Notes under the pieces: model-generated | Databases searched by the model: none | What the model was told of the DNA's origin: nothing | Seen by the model: the letters and a program-made list of their open reading frames with translations, nothing else | Source: a virus | DNA: 23,060 nucleotides | IMG/VR virus record: IMGVR_UViG_3300017726_000092 | Location: 1-23,060 of that record | Strand: one strand, 5' to 3' | Translations under genes and position numbers: made by a program | In this document: positions 4,101-19,935 of the stretch, piece after piece | How positions within the stretch are numbered: position 1 is the stretch's first letter | Layout of the letters: each line of letters starts with the position of its first letter

Positions 4101-6863
4101 TTATTCTTTTTCTTTTTCTTTACCAGAATCCTTACTATCATATCTATTTTTATTGACTCTAGCTATCTCAAGTTGTTTGTTTGCAACCTCTCTTTGAGAT
4201 GCCATCTTTTGTCTTTGAAGATCAAGCTTTTGATTTTCTACTGAGTTTTTAACTGCTTGTTGCTCTCTCTTAAAACTCATCTGTTCACGATACTGTTCTG
4301 TTTGCTTTAGATCTTTTAAGCTATCTTGCAAATCTGATACTTGATTCTGATTAATATCTTGCATAGCCCCATAACCAGAAGCTTTAATTTCCGCAACCAT
4401 AAGATCTTTTTGTCTTTCCTTTTGACTTTCTTCAGCTTCAAACTGCATCTTCATTTGATCTTCTTGAGCTTTAGCTTGTAACTGTTGCTGTTGCATTTGT
4501 TGTTGCTGTTGCATCTCTTGCTGGCGCATCATCATTTGCTTACCTTCTGTATCCTTAAGAATATCTGAAACTTCAGCAATTGAAGTAGCTTTTATAATAT
4601 TACCAAGATCATATATACTAGCACCTGTTGTATTATTTGATAATGCCATTTGTTTTAACTGATCTAATATCTGTCTATGATTAGTTTTAGTTGTAGAGTA
4701 TATATTAAAATCTCTTAATAATAAATCAGTGCCATTAATAGTAAAGTTAACTTTTTCAGCTTCTGATGATATATATTGAAGTCTTACACTTGGTTTAGTG
4801 CTATAGTAATACTGTGCAAGATCTGTACGCATCTGGTGCACTCTAGGCATTAAGTTATCAGAATGCTGTACAAAATACATTTCTGTTTGTGCATATGATG
4901 CATTCATTGCTTGAGTAACGCCTGTAGCTGTTTGTTGTGCAATAGCACCCCCTAGTCTTTGAGGATTAACCCCAATAGATTCAAAACACTGTTGTTTAAA
5001 ATAGTTAGCTAACTGTATTCTAGACATTAGTCTACCAGTTTGCTCCATGTTTAATGTCTGATAATGATTAAAGTTTGTAGCATTTTCTGTATTAGTAATA
5101 GAAGTATCCAATGGTAACATCTGAAAATCTTTCATTGCTACATATGCTTTAGCATAGTTATTCTTACCCCAGTCTTCACCCATAGAATGGCGTGGTAATG
5201 CATTCTGATCAAACATAATAACAGTACCAAGCTCATCTACTAAAATGTCAGCTATCTGGTTATTAACCATGTTATAACCTACTTGATAAGGTTTCATTAA
5301 GTCAACAAGAGATGTTGATCTAGTATTTCTATCTGAAAAGACTCTACCTTCCATTGGTAATTTACAACCATAAAGTGTGTTATCACCTTTAAATTGAAAT
5401 GGAACTCTTCCAGGTTTTGTTTTATTTATTCCAAGATAAATTGGGTTAATATTATCACCCATGTTAGATCTCCAGAATGCAGGTAAGTTTGGACCAATTT
5501 TAACACCACCCCATACTTCATTAATCCATATCCAATCTATATGCTCACCTTGAATTAAGGTGTCTTTAGTTTTATTTTTAACTATAGAAGTATCATATTT
5601 AGGTTTCATTGTAACCCTATATGACTCATCAATAATTTCTTGTGTTACTTCTCCTGTTTCAGATATCGCTGTTAAGTGACCTACTTTTCTTTGAGACTTC
5701 CAGTAAACAGTAGTAACACGCATCAACTCACCTTCACCCCATTGTTTAACATCTTCACCCTCATTAAGGATAGCACTAACAATATCCCCACCTCTAGCTG
5801 GATCATCAGAAAAATTACTTACAAACTGTCTATAAGCAAGACCCGGCATATTTGTATTCCACTCATGTGATCTAGATGGATCATAGTATGCACCATCATT
5901 TTGATAACCATTTACTTGATACTGTGCAGATTTAGCAGGATATATTTCTTGTAATGAATGTAACTGTGCTTCACTCATCAAATACCCATACTTGTCTATT
6001 ACATCTGCCACAGTAAGTAAATCAACCTTACCAGCAAAATTAGAATCAGATATATATCTAGTATCTGGAGACTTTTGATAGAATGTTGTTACAGGATTCC
6101 ACAGTTCTAACTCATAGTCATCCTCTAACATTCTAAAATGCCAAAACTCACGATCTGTGATAAGCATATCTCTAAATCCTCTTTCCTCAAGCTCTTGCAT
6201 TTTAAACCTTTCTTCATCAACATTAAGTTGATGAGATGCCCATTCTTCTATAAGACTTCTATAATCTTTAGAAAAGAAGTCTTGAATCTCAGGTAAACTT
6301 TTTAGGTTTTCAGGATTTAATTGTTGTTTTAATTCTGGATCTGCAGGATCAGCACCCATGTCAATCATTTTTTGAATGAGCTGCGTCTGTGCATCTGCCA
6401 ATAATGTTTTTTCAATCTCCTCTCTTTTTGATTCTAAAAACTCATTATATGATAAATCATCTACAGCTCTAAACTGAACCTTATGATATCTTTTAGAAAA
6501 CTCACCAGAAAGAACATTAATTACATTTGGAACAATTGGATAAAACTTTAATTCTAATGCTGACTCATCCTCTTTGGTTAGAACATCCATTAAATCTTTG
6601 TATTCATTGTCTTCTTCAACAATGTAATCTCTTTTGTCAATAATACCTTTAGCAAGCTTATAGTTCTTTAAAAGCTTTCTAGCATTACGTCTTAGAAACT
6701 CTAATCCTTGTAATTCCAACCAGTCTAGATTCCATGCAGACCAATCATCATCTTTTTTCTTTTCAGGTAAAAACTGAATTGGTTGCGTTAAGCTAGATGT
6801 AGTAGGATATTTACCCTCTGCTTTAGCACCTTTCTTTAACTGTAGAGCGTTAACTACCCTCAT
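4101..6863 (-). CDS. Portal protein (920 aa)
   Basis: Forms the dodecameric DNA channel at one head vertex and the docking site for terminase and neck. The assignment comes from its place directly after the large terminase, its large size (crAss-like portals are mostly about 750-920 aa), the mixed alpha/beta body (about 1-760) and a long polar C-terminal region (about 781-910) rich in Gln, Glu, Lys and Met, with a Gln-rich run at 781-795, which should form a coiled coil or the barrel helices. Residues 10-30 contain a low-complexity start and the segment DDWSAWNLDWLELQ, followed by helix-rich sequence typical of portal N-termini. The start ATG shares one base with the terminase stop (TAATG), which indicates translational coupling. 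The CAG/CAA-rich tail DNA is repeat-like but remains in frame. Confidence 0.85.
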   Translation of the reverse strand: MRVVNALQLKKGAKAEGKYPTTSSLTQPIQFLPEKKKDDDWSAWNLDWLELQGLEFLRRNARKLLKNYKLAKGIIDKRDYIVEEDNEYKDLMDVLTKEDESALELKFYPIVPNVINVLSGEFSKRYHKVQFRAVDDLSYNEFLESKREEIEKTLLADAQTQLIQKMIDMGADPADPELKQQLNPENLKSLPEIQDFFSKDYRSLIEEWASHQLNVDEERFKMQELEERGFRDMLITDREFWHFRMLEDDYELELWNPVTTFYQKSPDTRYISDSNFAGKVDLLTVADVIDKYGYLMSEAQLHSLQEIYPAKSAQYQVNGYQNDGAYYDPSRSHEWNTNMPGLAYRQFVSNFSDDPARGGDIVSAILNEGEDVKQWGEGELMRVTTVYWKSQRKVGHLTAISETGEVTQEIIDESYRVTMKPKYDTSIVKNKTKDTLIQGEHIDWIWINEVWGGVKIGPNLPAFWRSNMGDNINPIYLGINKTKPGRVPFQFKGDNTLYGCKLPMEGRVFSDRNTRSTSLVDLMKPYQVGYNMVNNQIADILVDELGTVIMFDQNALPRHSMGEDWGKNNYAKAYVAMKDFQMLPLDTSITNTENATNFNHYQTLNMEQTGRLMSRIQLANYFKQQCFESIGVNPQRLGGAIAQQTATGVTQAMNASYAQTEMYFVQHSDNLMPRVHQMRTDLAQYYYSTKPSVRLQYISSEAEKVNFTINGTDLLLRDFNIYSTTKTNHRQILDQLKQMALSNNTTGASIYDLGNIIKATSIAEVSDILKDTEGKQMMMRQQEMQQQQQMQQQQLQAKAQEDQMKMQFEAEESQKERQKDLMVAEIKASGYGAMQDINQNQVSDLQDSLKDLKQTEQYREQMSFKREQQAVKNSVENQKLDLQRQKMASQREVANKQLEIARVNKNRYDSKDSGKEKEKE

Positions 6864-9046
6864 TATCTTAAATTTTTAAATCCAGTTCTCTTCATCCTTT
6901 GTCCATTTATTGTGTTTTTACGCCCAATATTACGGAACGGACTATACTTTAATTTATGGAATTTTTTTGAATTATCCAATGAATTCTCATTCTTCTCTAG
7001 CCTTTTTGCATACCCACGGTTAGATTGTTGAATCTTTGCAAAAGCAACTAAAGCAGAAAAAGCAACTAAACGGTCAACATTTAAACCTGGATAATATGCT
7101 AACATTTCTTTAATTAACATTGGATCAGGTATTCTAGTAGCACCCTTTGTAGTAGATATAATATTACCTTCTATGTCTAACTCTTCATCTATATCTTCTC
7201 TAAGAAACTCAATAGCATAAGAAATTAAATGATTCTTAAATAGTGTACCTGTATTTTTCCAACCATATTCTTGGAATACAGATCTATTAGAACCCAAATC
7301 TTTCAGAAATAATATCTGCTGCTTTGGTACAAGATACTTTTGCTTGCGCTTACTAATCATATATTGAATAAATAATGAGATATTATTCTCCACTATTGTC
7401 CATGCATTATACCATTCTATAATTAGTTCTAATTGCTCATGCGTTTTATTAATATCATCATATCTACCGCACCATGCAGCAACTATCTTATCTTTTTCTA
7501 TAAAGTGTTCTAGTCCATTTTCTGTTTCTCTACTTACTTCTACAGGATTCTTATATACAAAAATGCTACACAATGAATCTGATGTAGTTGTCTTACCTTC
7601 TGACACAGGGTCAATAGAAGCATAATATGTACCAAACTCTGGATTCTTTGTAGGACGCTCCCATACAACTAAAGCACCTGTTTTATCAACTTGCTTTTTA
7701 TCTACAGGAAATTTAGATATTGGTAATTTATCTGTACGATTTGCAATAATACCTTTTTCATCTCTTTGTAGTTTAAGATGTTCATAAGAGTATTCTTTCT
7801 CTTCTATTGCTTTTAATTGTTTAGATAATACACCTTGAGGAAATATAGATTCTTTTCTGTAAGCAAATGCTTCAGCAATGTTAGTAGGCTTCTGAGATAT
7901 TCTTAATTGATATTGTTCTGGATTAAGAGATACTTTCCAATCTGCTCTTTCTTTTCTAATAGCTTCTAATGCTTGTTCAACAAGAGAATTACCATAATCA
8001 TCAATATAAGGAGGCATAGACCATTGCTCAGGAATAAATAATCCTGCTATGCCAATAGTACCATCCTTATCCATTAGATTAGTTTCTATAGCATATACAT
8101 CATTTGCATCTGCGTTTAAGATCATCTCCTTTAAAGGTTCACATTGATCCAAGTCCCCCACTGATCCTGCTGCAATAAACATCCCCGTAGTTACCATACC
8201 AGATACCATTGCAGGTCTAATATATTCATATGTATCAGACATCTTAGGTGCAATCCCTGCTTCCTCATGAAAGAAGTATGTACACGGACCACCAACTCCA
8301 GTTGTTGCACTCTTCTCAAAAGATGCACCCTGTATCTTAGATTTAAGTCCTCTATATGTCTTACGGTTATTTATTTTAACCTCAATCTTCTGCTCCCATA
8401 AAAGAACCTTCTCAGGATTACATGGTCTATACCATGCAGTATGCTCGTTTAAAAAAGCTTTATACTCATCAAGAAACTTCCATGAACCTTTGTCATTGAT
8501 ATAATCTTTTAAAGAAGCTCCTATCTTACATATACTACCCTCCTCAAACCAATAGGTATTAAGAAGCTTTGCCATATGAAAGTATGAAGATGCAATCTGA
8601 CGTTTCTTTAATATTGCTGAATGTTTGTAATGTAACTCTGCAAGTAATTCATATAGTGCCATATGGTATTGAGCATCTCTTACTTTGGCAAAACCAAACT
8701 TCTTTTCTTCCTTGTTAAAAATAGGCAAGAAGTTTAACCACATGTAATAATCTCTAGTAAGATACCATGTGATTCCTTGGTTGTGATATATTACACCATC
8801 ACGACATTTATTCTTTTCAGTTTCCCAATAAGTTACAAAGTCTTTAGATCTAAAAGGTTTATCACAATAAAATCCATGCTCTTCAAAAAACCTAGCCTCT
8901 TTATTAAAGATGTAAGCAGTTTCATCAAAAGCATACTCCCCAGGCTCTTTGAACAAGGGGAGTAGAAAGTTTATAAAATCTTCACGAGTTTTAAACTCTG
9001 TGGTACGCCAGGTACCATTGTCATATGTGTGTATTGACTTATACAT
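6863..9046 (-). CDS. terL: Terminase large subunit, ATPase and nuclease (727 aa)
   Basis: Motor that cuts and pumps concatemeric DNA into the procapsid through the portal. ATPase domain (about 120-330): a variant Walker A, KKRQIASS at 147-154, with Arg-Gln before the Ser pair as is common in terminases; Walker B with catalytic Glu, TYFFHEE at 256-262; a coupling motif AAGSVGD at about 292-298. RNase H-like nuclease domain (about 470-680): acidic residues in SIDP (D479), VENN (E553) and NVDRLVAF (D658). The size and variant Walker A fit crAss-like terminases. It begins with ATG inside the end of the GroES-like gene (8-base overlap) and its stop overlaps the portal start. No obvious defects: all expected catalytic residues are present. 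Confidence 0.93.
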   Translation of the reverse strand: MYKSIHTYDNGTWRTTEFKTREDFINFLLPLFKEPGEYAFDETAYIFNKEARFFEEHGFYCDKPFRSKDFVTYWETEKNKCRDGVIYHNQGITWYLTRDYYMWLNFLPIFNKEEKKFGFAKVRDAQYHMALYELLAELHYKHSAILKKRQIASSYFHMAKLLNTYWFEEGSICKIGASLKDYINDKGSWKFLDEYKAFLNEHTAWYRPCNPEKVLLWEQKIEVKINNRKTYRGLKSKIQGASFEKSATTGVGGPCTYFFHEEAGIAPKMSDTYEYIRPAMVSGMVTTGMFIAAGSVGDLDQCEPLKEMILNADANDVYAIETNLMDKDGTIGIAGLFIPEQWSMPPYIDDYGNSLVEQALEAIRKERADWKVSLNPEQYQLRISQKPTNIAEAFAYRKESIFPQGVLSKQLKAIEEKEYSYEHLKLQRDEKGIIANRTDKLPISKFPVDKKQVDKTGALVVWERPTKNPEFGTYYASIDPVSEGKTTTSDSLCSIFVYKNPVEVSRETENGLEHFIEKDKIVAAWCGRYDDINKTHEQLELIIEWYNAWTIVENNISLFIQYMISKRKQKYLVPKQQILFLKDLGSNRSVFQEYGWKNTGTLFKNHLISYAIEFLREDIDEELDIEGNIISTTKGATRIPDPMLIKEMLAYYPGLNVDRLVAFSALVAFAKIQQSNRGYAKRLEKNENSLDNSKKFHKLKYSPFRNIGRKNTINGQRMKRTGFKNLR

Positions 9047-9317
9047 TTATGATTGCAAACACATCTTCAGCATTTAGAAGAAAGTGTTCTTCACCATCAT
9101 GCATCATAACTGTTGGTTTAGCATAGTCAGCATATTGAATAACCTGTCCTGGTTCAATAAGCTCTACAGTATTACCAACAGCTACTACAATAGCTTTACA
9201 CTCTTTCTTTCCCGTTCCCTCTGGAATTAGTATTGATGTTCCTGCAAAGTACTTTTCTGCTTCTTTCTTCTTTACTAGGATCTTTCTTCCTACCGGTGTA
9301 ATTTTTTGATTTTTCAT
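9039..9317 (-). CDS. GroES-like co-chaperonin (92 aa)
   Basis: Cpn10 family protein that should cap a host GroEL and help fold virion proteins, as T4 gp31 does for its capsid protein. Matches to the family: KITPVGRKILVKKKEAE at about 5-21, a mobile-loop region GTSILIP at 26-32 with the hydrophobic tripeptide I-L-I that would bind GroEL, IVVAVGN at 43-49, an acidic-glycine turn EPGQVI and the closing strand EDVFAIINV. The start at 9317 is preferred because family similarity begins there and the leader is A-rich; a GTG at 9362 and an ATG at 9338 in the same frame would only add a non-conserved extension. It overlaps the terminase start by 8 bases, so it is made with the packaging and head proteins. 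Confidence 0.82.
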   Translation of the reverse strand: MKNQKITPVGRKILVKKKEAEKYFAGTSILIPEGTGKKECKAIVVAVGNTVELIEPGQVIQYADYAKPTVMMHDGEEHFLLNAEDVFAIINV

Positions 9318-9371
9318 TTTTAATTGATTTAAAGTCATCCCAATATGGGAAAATATATTCACTATTCATAA

Positions 9372-9890: not shown

Positions 9891-10096
9891 CTGTTTACTA
9901 ATTCTTTGAACTCATCATAACTCATATCTACAATAAAAGGTCCCATTGCACCTATAATAGTAACTAATGTATGTTGTTCATGTTTATAATAAGATACAAT
10001 AGCATCTGGTTTAAATGAAGCCACTGATGGTTTAAGTTGAGTTAATCCACTTTCATCTTGCACTTCTAATTTTATTTTTACTTCTATATACATCAT
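9887..10096 (-). CDS. Small unknown protein (69 aa)
   Basis: No recognised domain. The sequence alternates hydrophobic and charged residues (IEVKIKLEVQ, then VSYYKHEQHTLVTIIG), which suggests a small beta-barrel or sheet with one C-terminal helix (YDEFKELVNR). It overlaps both neighbours by four bases (ATGA at 10093-10096 and 9887-9890), so it is translated in step with the nuclease and the 172 aa protein. The first of two adjacent ATG codons is chosen because of the ATGA overlap. A small protein with this shape next to a nuclease could be a partner or inhibitor, but nothing in the sequence shows it. Confidence 0.7.
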   Translation of the reverse strand: MMYIEVKIKLEVQDESGLTQLKPSVASFKPDAIVSYYKHEQHTLVTIIGAMGPFIVDMSYDEFKELVNR

Positions 10097-10905
10097 TTGT
10101 TATCTTTTAACCACATTATTAATGTTCTTACCTCATCTTTAAGATATGGTAAATCATATATTTTAATATCTTCCACAACAGGTTCTCCATTTATATGTTC
10201 ATTAATTGGATACCCATTTGTATCAGTACCCAATTGTTTAAACTTTACATGTTGAATAGTTAACTTTCCTATCTTTAGTTTAGGGTTGTGCTTTTTAATA
10301 ATATACGCATAAATACTGAGTTGTAAATTATAATGATTTAAATTACAATCATCAAGGTGTATAACAGGAGCAAACATTTTAGATGTTATACCCTCCCAGT
10401 TTGTAAACCCTTTCTCACGTATTTCTTTATTAGTCTTATAATCATTGATATTTATGTGTCCATTTACTATTTCAACTAAATCTGCTTGTCCGCATAAACC
10501 TACAGACTTTAAATACACCATATGTTCAGGATATACACCTTCATCAAGTTTTTGATTTGATGCTATTTTAATCCCATCATTATCAATAATTGGTTTAATA
10601 ATAGGTACTTCAACACCCTCACGTTGAATTGTTTTAAGACCAAGTATATCTGACTCACGTTGATTATGATACCAGTTGCCAAGTTTAATAGCTCTTTGTG
10701 TTTCATTATCCCATGCTTCCATTATTTCTTCTGGAGTCATACCATACCACTTAGATCTTTTATTCTTAGAAGACTTCTTTGCTTGACCTTCTCTATCAAA
10801 CTTAGGTTTAAAGTTTCCTATAAATGACGTAACACTAGTCCACTTGATATCTTCATTACCAATGCTTTCATACAAGTGTCCATCTTCTTTAAATGTTATT
10901 GCCAT
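10093..10905 (-). CDS. PD-(D/E)XK nuclease, RecB/Cas4-like exonuclease fold (270 aa)
   Basis: Probable metal-dependent DNA exonuclease acting in phage recombination, DNA end processing or host DNA breakdown. Motifs in order: a His in a helix (GNWYHNQ, H80), an acidic residue before the core strand (D142 in GLCGQADLVEI), the catalytic NDYKT (D155, K157) and the QxxxY helix motif LQLSIYAYI (Q195, Y199). This set and order is typical of RecB-type nucleases. Crassvirales genomes commonly carry a PD-(D/E)XK nuclease. No Cas4-type cysteine cluster is seen, so it lacks the iron-sulphur site. The stop overlaps the next gene by ATGA and its start shares one base with the SET gene stop (TAATG). Confidence 0.85.
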   Translation of the reverse strand: MAITFKEDGHLYESIGNEDIKWTSVTSFIGNFKPKFDREGQAKKSSKNKRSKWYGMTPEEIMEAWDNETQRAIKLGNWYHNQRESDILGLKTIQREGVEVPIIKPIIDNDGIKIASNQKLDEGVYPEHMVYLKSVGLCGQADLVEIVNGHININDYKTNKEIREKGFTNWEGITSKMFAPVIHLDDCNLNHYNLQLSIYAYIIKKHNPKLKIGKLTIQHVKFKQLGTDTNGYPINEHINGEPVVEDIKIYDLPYLKDEVRTLIMWLKDNK

Positions 10906-11279
10906 TATTTCTTTTTTAAATGTGGTTTAGCCTCCCAATATTTATCTCCACCATAAAATACAGTTATTTCATCTCCAGCTTCAATATCTTTAATTGCCCT
11001 AAACCTCATAGTTTCTCTACCAAAGTCTGGTTCATAGATTGCATTACATGTATCAGAATGATTATAGAAACAACCATAACCTGCTACAATGCAAGCTTTA
11101 TTATTTATTTTCCAACTAAAACTATAATCTGCTAACTTGTCTTGCTCAGATACAAATATTACAGGACACTCTTCAATAAGTTCTTTTTTTGCAATTGGTT
11201 CTTTTGCAAATACTCCAAACCTATGTATAGGACTGCTTCTAACTATTATTTTATTCGTTGATGTTATTATCATTTTCAA
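10905..11279 (-). CDS. SET-domain protein, putative protein lysine methyltransferase (124 aa)
   Basis: Nearly the whole protein is a minimal SET domain. Signatures: HRFGVFAKEPIAKKELIEE (about 19-37, the N-terminal SET motif), YGCFYNHSDTCNA (about 68-80, equivalent to the NHSxxPN motif that binds S-adenosylmethionine) and AGDEITVFYG (101-110, equivalent to GEELTxDY with the catalytic Tyr at 109). Pre-SET and post-SET cysteines are absent. SET proteins transfer methyl groups from S-adenosylmethionine to lysines; the target here is unknown, candidates being virion proteins, the neighbouring IHF-like protein or host proteins. A second in-frame ATG (11273) is possible. The start overlaps the zinc-ribbon gene by 29 bases and the end overlaps the nuclease start by one. 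Confidence 0.82.
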   Translation of the reverse strand: MKMIITSTNKIIVRSSPIHRFGVFAKEPIAKKELIEECPVIFVSEQDKLADYSFSWKINNKACIVAGYGCFYNHSDTCNAIYEPDFGRETMRFRAIKDIEAGDEITVFYGGDKYWEAKPHLKKK

Positions 11280-11583
11280 TTGAGTTTAATAATTCAGCTT
11301 CTGTTTCATCATTCATAAGTGCTGTCCATTTACCCTTGGGACAATCAGAAGATAATGATCTTGTCTTTAGTGATAAACTGCAACCACATTCTGAACAGCA
11401 CGGTTGTGTACCAGGAGCAAGACACTCAGAACCTTTCCTATCCAATAATTCACAAGAGTTGCATATTGACATTCTCCACTCTGCTTCTGCTTCAATGTGT
11501 TCTTTCTTGAATACCTTGTTTTTAATACCCTCTAATATTTGTTGAGAGTTTTTAAATGCATCTAAATACTTATGTAGTTTCAT
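11251..11583 (-). CDS. Eight-cysteine zinc-ribbon protein (110 aa)
   Basis: Function unknown. Residues 36-86 hold eight Cys (41, 44, 54, 62, 63, 66, 68, 81) in the order CxxC, a spaced C, PCCxxCGC and CPxGKW, enough for one or two zinc sites. The CPxGKW ending is common in small zinc proteins of phages. The N-terminal 35 residues are a charged helix and the C-terminal 25 residues are acidic. Probably binds nucleic acid or a protein partner. It overlaps the IHF-like gene by ATGA and the SET gene by 29 bases, so these three products are made together. Confidence 0.78.
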   Translation of the reverse strand: MKLHKYLDAFKNSQQILEGIKNKVFKKEHIEAEAEWRMSICNSCELLDRKGSECLAPGTQPCCSECGCSLSLKTRSLSSDCPKGKWTALMNDETEAELLNSIENDNNINE

Positions 11584-11936
11584 TTTTTTGATTTAAACTC
11601 TCGATATTCTTTTTTTCTTTGCTCTATAACATTTAAAGTTTTCTCCATGATCTCTATCTTAGAAGTTGTGTTTAAATGTTTTTCATAACCATTGTATGTA
11701 TTTACATCCACACTGTTTAAAATGTTACGTTGCTTTTCTAAAGCTTTATTAAGTTTCTTTTTCATTACACTAAATGTCCCAAGATTATCTATATAAATCT
11801 TAGGGTCTGTTACAGAAACCATATGCTTCCTCACCTCAGAGTAATAAAACTTTATAAAATCAGTGACAACATCTTCATGGACACCAACTTCTTCCGCTAT
11901 CCCCTCTATTAAAGTTTTAAACTTCTTTGGTTTCAA
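11580..11936 (-). CDS. IHF/HU-like DNA-bending protein (118 aa)
   Basis: Residues 1-65 match the HU/IHF layout: helices with LIEGIAEEVGVHEDVVTDFIKFYYSEVRKHM and then the short sheet KIYIDNLGTFSVMKKK, equivalent to the GxGxF turn of HU. The usual DNA-intercalating Pro of the arm is not evident and residues 66-118 form a long charged helix instead of a standard C-terminus, so it is a divergent member. Crass-like phages carry IHF-like proteins near their virion genes. Likely roles are genome condensation, packaging or control of late transcription. It overlaps the winged-helix-like gene by 20 bases and the zinc-ribbon gene by ATGA. Confidence 0.72.
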   Translation of the reverse strand: MKPKKFKTLIEGIAEEVGVHEDVVTDFIKFYYSEVRKHMVSVTDPKIYIDNLGTFSVMKKKLNKALEKQRNILNSVDVNTYNGYEKHLNTTSKIEIMEKTLNVIEQRKKEYREFKSKK

Positions 11937-12286: not shown

Positions 12287-13201
12287 TTATAAGCTTAATA
12301 ACATTTCAACTAATCTAGGATCAGGATAACAATCAGACTTACCTCTACTAATATTAGTGTGAGTAAACAACCCTTTTACTTTCCCATAGTATGCATCCTC
12401 ATTCCACTCAAATGCTTTATGAGCACCATGCTTTTTAATCCACTGTACTAATCCAACTCTTGGATCAATATTGTCTCTTTCTGCCACAAATAGAATCCAC
12501 TTCTTAGTTTCCTGTATTTGTTTATCAGAATAACGGTGATATGTTTTATATCCTCTAAATGGTTCTTCTAATAAAGCAACTTGATTATCAGCAACTCTTC
12601 TACCTGTATAGGTCTTTTGATTTTTTAAATATCCCATAGAGCAGATCTCTAAAGCTACTGTGCGTTTATTCATATATCCAGAACCACTACGTCCTAAATG
12701 CCATCCCTGACATCCCGTAGGAAAACATTGCACCATTACACCATCATACTCATTATCATTAGTAGCACAATCTTTACCACCCAAAACAAATTCAGTGGCA
12801 ACACGCCCACGGGTATCTCTACCCCAGTAGTCAATCACCTTGTAAGGATTAGCTCCACTAGCCGTATGATGTAAACAGATATAATCATTCTCAATGGGTC
12901 CTTCTAGATATTCACCCTTGGGTAAATAATACTTATGAATTCTCTGCCCAAACGTAGTTTCAAAGAATTGATCCTGGATATCACTACTCTCATCAATAGC
13001 ATCATCCTTATGGGCAATGTTTAACAAAGCCGTCCACGTCTGATTCCCCACCACCCCATCAACCTTGAGGTCATTGCTCATTTGAAATCTAATAACACCC
13101 TTCTCAGTGTTAGGACCAAAGATGCCATCAGCCTTAAGTTTAAGAAGTCTCTGTAGTTGTTTTACTTCTTCCCCTTTTGAACCTTTCCTAAGCAACTGCA
13201 T
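12287..13201 (-). CDS. Peptidoglycan-binding amidase, candidate endolysin (304 aa)
   Basis: N-acetylmuramoyl-L-alanine amidase of the Amidase_2 / PGRP fold, which cuts the bond between muramic acid and the stem peptide. N-terminal peptidoglycan-binding repeat at about 4-60 (GSKGEEVKQLQRLLKLKADGIFGPNT, split here only by family landmarks). Catalytic domain about 100-295: HHTAS (zinc ligand H111), a core strand VALEICSMG, FTHTNI (H281) and GKSDCYPDP (K288, C291), matching the His-His-Cys zinc set and Lys of T7 lysozyme. No signal peptide or membrane segment, so release needs a holin or another route. It lies at the upstream end of the late strand and its start shares one base with the preceding stop (TAATG). 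A virion-associated role is possible. Confidence 0.88.
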   Translation of the reverse strand: MQLLRKGSKGEEVKQLQRLLKLKADGIFGPNTEKGVIRFQMSNDLKVDGVVGNQTWTALLNIAHKDDAIDESSDIQDQFFETTFGQRIHKYYLPKGEYLEGPIENDYICLHHTASGANPYKVIDYWGRDTRGRVATEFVLGGKDCATNDNEYDGVMVQCFPTGCQGWHLGRSGSGYMNKRTVALEICSMGYLKNQKTYTGRRVADNQVALLEEPFRGYKTYHRYSDKQIQETKKWILFVAERDNIDPRVGLVQWIKKHGAHKAFEWNEDAYYGKVKGLFTHTNISRGKSDCYPDPRLVEMLLSL

Positions 13202-19847: not shown

Positions 19848-19921
19848 GCTCTCATAGCTCAACTGGATAGAGCAATTCACTTCTAATGAATAGGTTTCAG
19901 GTTCGAGTCCTGATGAGAGTA
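19848..19921 (+). tRNA. tRNA-Arg with anticodon UCU
   Basis: A full cloverleaf can be drawn: acceptor GCTCTCA (19848-19854) with TGAGAGT (19914-19920) including one G-T pair; D arm GCTC/GAGC (19857-19860, 19870-19873); anticodon stem ATTCA/TGAAT (19875-19879, 19887-19891) with loop CTTCTAA and anticodon TCT at 19882-19884; five-base variable region; T arm TCAGG/CCTGA with TTCGAGT loop (19897-19913); discriminator A. CCA is not encoded (CTA follows). It reads AGA, a heavily used Arg codon in these genes, so it likely supports translation of phage mRNA. Confidence 0.95.
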
Positions 19922-19935
19922 CTAAAATTTTTATT

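Follow-up and report, generated by a model that had tools for sequence, protein, structure and literature searches.

Does the gene at positions 10905-11279 of an environmental viral DNA fragment encode a SET-domain methyltransferase, and if so, which protein would it modify? The window, i.e. the whole stretch that was analysed, is a single IMG/VR record of 23,060 bases and covers part of the packaging/head operon of a crAss-like phage. The original prediction, made from the letters alone, described a minimal phage SET protein in a late operon and offered a lysine-rich IHF-like neighbour as its target. Our analysis identifies the gene product, with high confidence, as a SET protein-lysine methyltransferase of the stand-alone vSET-like kind, and the gene as accessory cargo of an environmental crAss-like phage. 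The proposed target fared less well.

Sequence motifs and predicted fold of the SET protein

The open reading frame was confirmed on the minus strand, which had not been specified before, and comprises 124 codons from a TTG start. An alternative ATG at 11273, two codons after the TTG, would give a protein of 122 aa. The Pfam SET profile (PF00856) matched the 124-aa protein over profile positions 2-105 of 105 with an E-value of 2.9e-16 and 60.2 bits at a cut-off of 22.4, and SET was the only Pfam family detected in it. Searches of PHROGs and NCBIfam returned no SET match for the protein. The closest sequence of solved structure, obtained with phmmer against the PDB, was vSET of PBCV-1 (1n3j; E 1.1e-20, residues 9-122), followed by Plasmodium PFL0690c and S. 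pombe Set7. With its 124 aa and without pre-SET, post-SET or accessory domains the protein resembles the vSET-like stand-alone group, whose members have a length of about 120 aa. The full Pfam profile and the vSET alignment bear out the description as a minimal phage SET protein.

All three SET signatures that had been claimed are recognisable, one of them with a substitution. Motif I reads HRFGVFA (19-25), such that in R20-F21-G22 the second glycine of the GxG element is kept while the first is replaced by arginine. A further SET motif, GYGCFYNHSDTCNA, spans residues 67-80 and includes N73, H74, S75 and N79. Y52 is present as well, and EITVFYGG at 104-111 contains E104 and the catalytic tyrosine Y109. 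All 136 aligned relatives have N73, I99 and E104, and 135 of them have Y109; in the A3 family alignment G67, N73, I99, E104 and Y109 are all invariant.

The structure prediction that had been suggested as a check yielded a model that matches SET folds. The AlphaFold2 model, based on a 71-row alignment, had a mean pLDDT of 89.7 and a pTM of 0.83. A Foldseek search with this model placed vSET (3kma) first at 4.9e-11. In VIA-align the model matched PFL0690c and Set7 with a Z-score of 15.3 and vSET 3kma with a Z-score of 14.9 (rmsd of 2.0 Å over 101 residues). MLL, SET8, PRC2 and other SET enzymes came next at Z 12-13.6, and hundreds of other SET chains were matched as well. In this global fold comparison the near end-to-end match of the model (Z 13-15) spans both knot-forming motifs.

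The crAss-like operon and its variable slot

At its upstream border the SET gene overlaps the gene of a Cys-rich zinc-ribbon-like protein of 110 aa (11251-11583, minus strand; phrog_13558 of unknown function, 5.3e-8) by 29 nt from the TTG or 23 nt from the ATG start. At its downstream border it shares 1 nt (TAATG) with the gene of a PD-(D/E)XK exonuclease (10093-10905, minus strand; phrog_298 exonuclease, 1.1e-22), for which the PF12705 match of 2.2e-4 is slightly below the cut-off. Both overlaps had been claimed correctly. The IHF/HU-like gene (11580-11936, minus strand) is indeed close and lies one gene further upstream. Its product of 118 aa is lysine-rich as described (17% Lys) and matches PF00216 weakly, with an E-value of 9.6e-4 and 19.8 bits, where 22.4 would be needed to pass the cut-off. 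An identity of this protein as AcrIIA3 was dropped (18 bits versus a cut-off of 70).

The label of a late operon fits too, as the genes of the terminase large subunit TerL (6863-9046; crAss-like, phrog_6681, 2.1e-60), the portal protein (4101-6863; phrog_6547, 1.1e-94), the major head protein (1023-2642; phrog_11589, 3.4e-28) and a GroES-like co-chaperonin (9039-9362; PF00166, 1.1e-12) share the minus strand of the SET gene. The same holds for an endolysin with peptidoglycan-binding and amidase_2 domains (12287-13201; PF01471, 1.8e-14; PF01510, 9.3e-8). Promoter-like sites were found at chance level. The GroES-like gene is located directly upstream of TerL and is syntenic in relatives; in most of them its product is far more diverged (28-60%) than TerL. 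A tRNA-Arg (TCT) is found at 19848-19922, within the half of the window that carries plus-strand genes.

Judged by the sequence relatedness of TerL, portal and head protein, the genome that carries the SET gene is that of a crAss-like phage. The top annotated TerL matches were uncultured gut crAss-like phages with 22-28% identity. Among the matches kept, the TerL search provided 80 viral contigs with 74-90% identity, plus one contig, L001, with 97%. The common gene order is amidase, x122, IHF, zinc ribbon, slot, PD-(D/E)XK, x172, GroES, TerL, portal and head protein, with the zinc-ribbon-like gene being syntenic across the crAss-like relatives.

Within this order the SET gene is an accessory insert in a hypervariable slot of an otherwise conserved packaging/head operon. 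Both slot borders, i.e. the zinc-ribbon and the PD-(D/E)XK gene, were present at 52 loci, and only in L001 did a SET gene lie between them. At the 51 others the operon order was kept while the slot gap ranged from about -16 to 358 nt and was empty or contained unrelated tiny ORFs. An alignment of the window with L001, L009 and L045 showed flanks that run on without a break in all four, and L009 and L045 lack the SET segment. When 50 relative records, which are fragments, were searched with PF00856, SET was found in three: in L001 and in two that carry a different, shorter SET protein. The SET copy of the window type occurs in two genomes only, the window and L001, both of which are fragments. 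In many relatives (e.g. L012, L024, L033 and L046) the slot holds an ORF of 28-33 aa that ends in WYT-type motifs such as MINYIYKENKTTYNINAQNGMWYTSISY; further alternatives are ORFs of 60-90 aa without assigned function.

The SET proteins of the window and of L001 are 91% identical and differ in 10 of 124 residues. For the gene pair we obtained a dN of 0.041, a dS of 0.324 and a dN/dS of 0.127, with values of 0.03-0.18 for the neighbouring genes. Within this small lineage the SET gene is under purifying selection, and together with the E-values the dN/dS puts the SET match far from chance. L001 has both glycines of the GxG element (Gly20), and the first glycine is found in 130 of the 136 relatives, while arginine occurs in the window copy alone. 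Having replaced the first glycine of the SAM motif, Arg20 could reduce the activity of the window copy. One may go further and regard this copy as decaying cargo that is losing or has lost its activity through Arg20, a reading to which the high conservation of the glycine and the absence of the gene from nearly all relatives would lend themselves. We consider such decay unlikely, given that the ORF is full-length, that its dN/dS against L001 is low and that the remaining motifs are intact. Moreover, a few family members carry D, E or H at position 20, so that the first glycine is not strictly needed for SET membership, and Arg20 amounts to one base change in one assembled contig, which could be an error.

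SET genes in other viruses and a shorter SET family

SET methyltransferases had been described as mostly eukaryotic and rare in phages. This was overstated, since SET genes are found in many phages as well as in bacterial and archaeal phyla. On viral contigs 124 places encode vSET-like relatives, 11 phage records contain SET relatives, and among the matches listed vSET-like proteins come from numerous phyla of bacteria and archaea. BFVD already contains annotated SET proteins from uncultured Caudovirales phages (best match 1.8e-13, 41%). Phage SET enzymes are known from database listings, and the window protein adds one more.

A phylogeny, which had also been suggested, did not place the window protein and its L001 counterpart with any other group. 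In the tree of 136 rows and 140 columns, which has many open forks, the two form a pair (100/100) that is joined to no other group. Most viral sequences fall, together with a single cellular row, into one clade (98/97), and vSET is grouped with gammaproteobacterial sequences. As to an origin from a particular host, we claim no donor because the pair is unplaced.

Among 90 scanned neighbours of other viral SET genes no family occurred more than five times (2OG-Fe(II) oxygenases 5, helicases 4-5), which argues against a fixed SET gene module. Such varied contexts are what is expected for portable cargo. Near the other vSET-type viral loci (124 places) no crAss-like genes were found, with two exceptions: L092, a second entry of the L001 contig, and an amidase match in L132-L134. 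At L002:5477-6974 the SET gene is flanked by two 2OG-Fe(II) oxygenase genes, and the upstream neighbour of the SET gene at L099:4473-5000 is 58% identical to the one in L002. The SET and oxygenase genes of these two loci might constitute a protein-modifying set.

Some related crAss-like phages encode a second, shorter SET family (mini-SET, about 105 aa, motif IRTPLGGFINHSK..N) in the operon that corresponds to that of the window (L085:3090-3422, L021:4984-5307 and L253-L259). In L021 and L085 the SET-like protein has 107-110 aa and is encoded upstream of the gene that precedes the amidase. Its relatives fall within phrog_28741, which is listed as 'unknown function'. Among its tblastn matches are proteins annotated as hypothetical only, from Pelagibacter phage Kolga and from the cyanophages P-RSM6 and P-SSM7. 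The mini-SET model (pLDDT 84.8) matched SET chains at Z-scores up to 12.1; both the model and the fold search point to a SET fold for the phrog_28741 mini-SET. Just upstream of the mini-SET, L085:1973-3012 contains a run of proteins of 55-84 aa with 21-29% lysine, one of which is weakly DUF5872-like. Such short lysine-rich ORFs precede the mini-SET in L085 and several relatives; they also occur without it (16/32 loci versus 2/32). In the window no lysine-rich short ORFs of the L085 type were found.

Activity, candidate substrates and known systems

SET enzymes bind SAM in a pocket, take up the substrate lysine through a channel and transfer the methyl group to it. In the window protein SAM would be bound at motif I together with the NHS/NxxA motif, while the substrate lysine would enter from the opposite side through a channel lined with Y52 and Y109, such that the methyl group could pass from SAM to the epsilon-amine of the lysine. 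The protein is probably functional as a protein-lysine methyltransferase, an activity that we infer. As its gene, inserted into the hypervariable slot, overlaps with both neighbours, it is probably translated together with the late structural proteins. The literature that we searched contained no enzymatic data on phage SET proteins and no study of SET function in phages.

For the substrate, the best explanation leaves room for a host protein that is methylated late in infection, serving takeover or counter-defence. We give this option a little less than an even chance. Optional cargo in a variable slot is what one expects of host-interaction genes, and SET genes are found in many unrelated phages with differing neighbours; the position in a virion operon, on the other hand, suggests co-production with structural proteins. 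Our second guess, somewhat less likely than a host protein, is a phage-encoded virion or DNA-binding protein, the IHF-like protein included. Should a phage protein of DNA packaging or of the virion turn out to be methylated, this would represent a case of lysine methylation on a genome-bound protein in a prokaryotic virus.

The more specific proposal that the SET protein methylates the neighbouring IHF-like protein and thereby tunes its DNA binding in genome packaging appears doubtful to us. The two genes share an operon with one gene in between, the IHF-like protein is the most lysine-rich among the larger proteins of the operon, and in vitro methylation of the nucleoid protein MC1-alpha by a SET protein is on record for archaea (PMC3980110). 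However, the SET gene sits in a variable slot, and the IHF-like gene is present in 49/49 SET-less relatives measured with equal lysine content (17.3 ± 2.1% versus 17% and 16% for the two genomes with SET). A lysine enrichment that would mark a methylation partner was therefore not seen in this comparison. Nor was the HU/IHF family recurrent among the neighbour families listed for other viral SET genes. With presence and lysine content of the IHF-like protein being independent of SET, it is adjacency that speaks for this target. A broader reading would be that environmental crAss-like phages repeatedly acquired SET enzymes, of the vSET type in the window and of the mini-SET type near lysine-rich small proteins in sister lineages, with which they methylate lysines in their own DNA-binding or virion proteins as a phage counterpart of chromatin methylation. 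We hold this to be improbable, and the chromatin-like interpretation of phage SET is speculative. Substrate and activity should be easy to test owing to the compact setting, with one optional slot in a conserved late operon, and to the natural Gly/Arg pair.

Of the known systems, PBCV-1 vSET (A612L; PDB 1n3j, 3kma, 2g46) is likewise a stand-alone SET protein of about 120 aa with the same motifs, and its fold is matched by the predicted one. It differs in being a Chlorella-virus enzyme, an H3-Lys27 methyltransferase by PDB entry name, while the host of the phage has no nucleosomes. In addition, it groups with gammaproteobacterial SET proteins apart from the window protein, which differs from it by Arg20. 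Goe1-SET of Methanosarcina mazei, for which methylation of the chromosomal protein MC1-alpha is covered in a review (PMC3980110), is by description similar as a small prokaryotic SET enzyme with a DNA-binding substrate, but it is archaeal and cellular. It offers the best outside parallel to the IHF proposal, and a legitimate one. Stand-alone SET proteins of Saprospiraceae, Planctomycetota, Bacillaceae, Patescibacteria, Methanosarcina and others have the same length and motifs at about 30-46% identity; unlike the window protein they are cellular, and no well-supported branch joins them to it. Among phage proteins, A0A6J5L8Y2 of an uncultured Caudovirales phage ('SET domain containing protein') is a stand-alone protein of 128 aa with 41% identity and a TM-score of 0.86. 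The annotated SET proteins of Menderavirus (Stenotrophomonas phages Moby and Ps15) show 36-37% identity in alignments that cover 78% of the query; in contrast to the window gene, the SET gene of Moby lies within a run of small hypothetical genes rather than in a structural operon.
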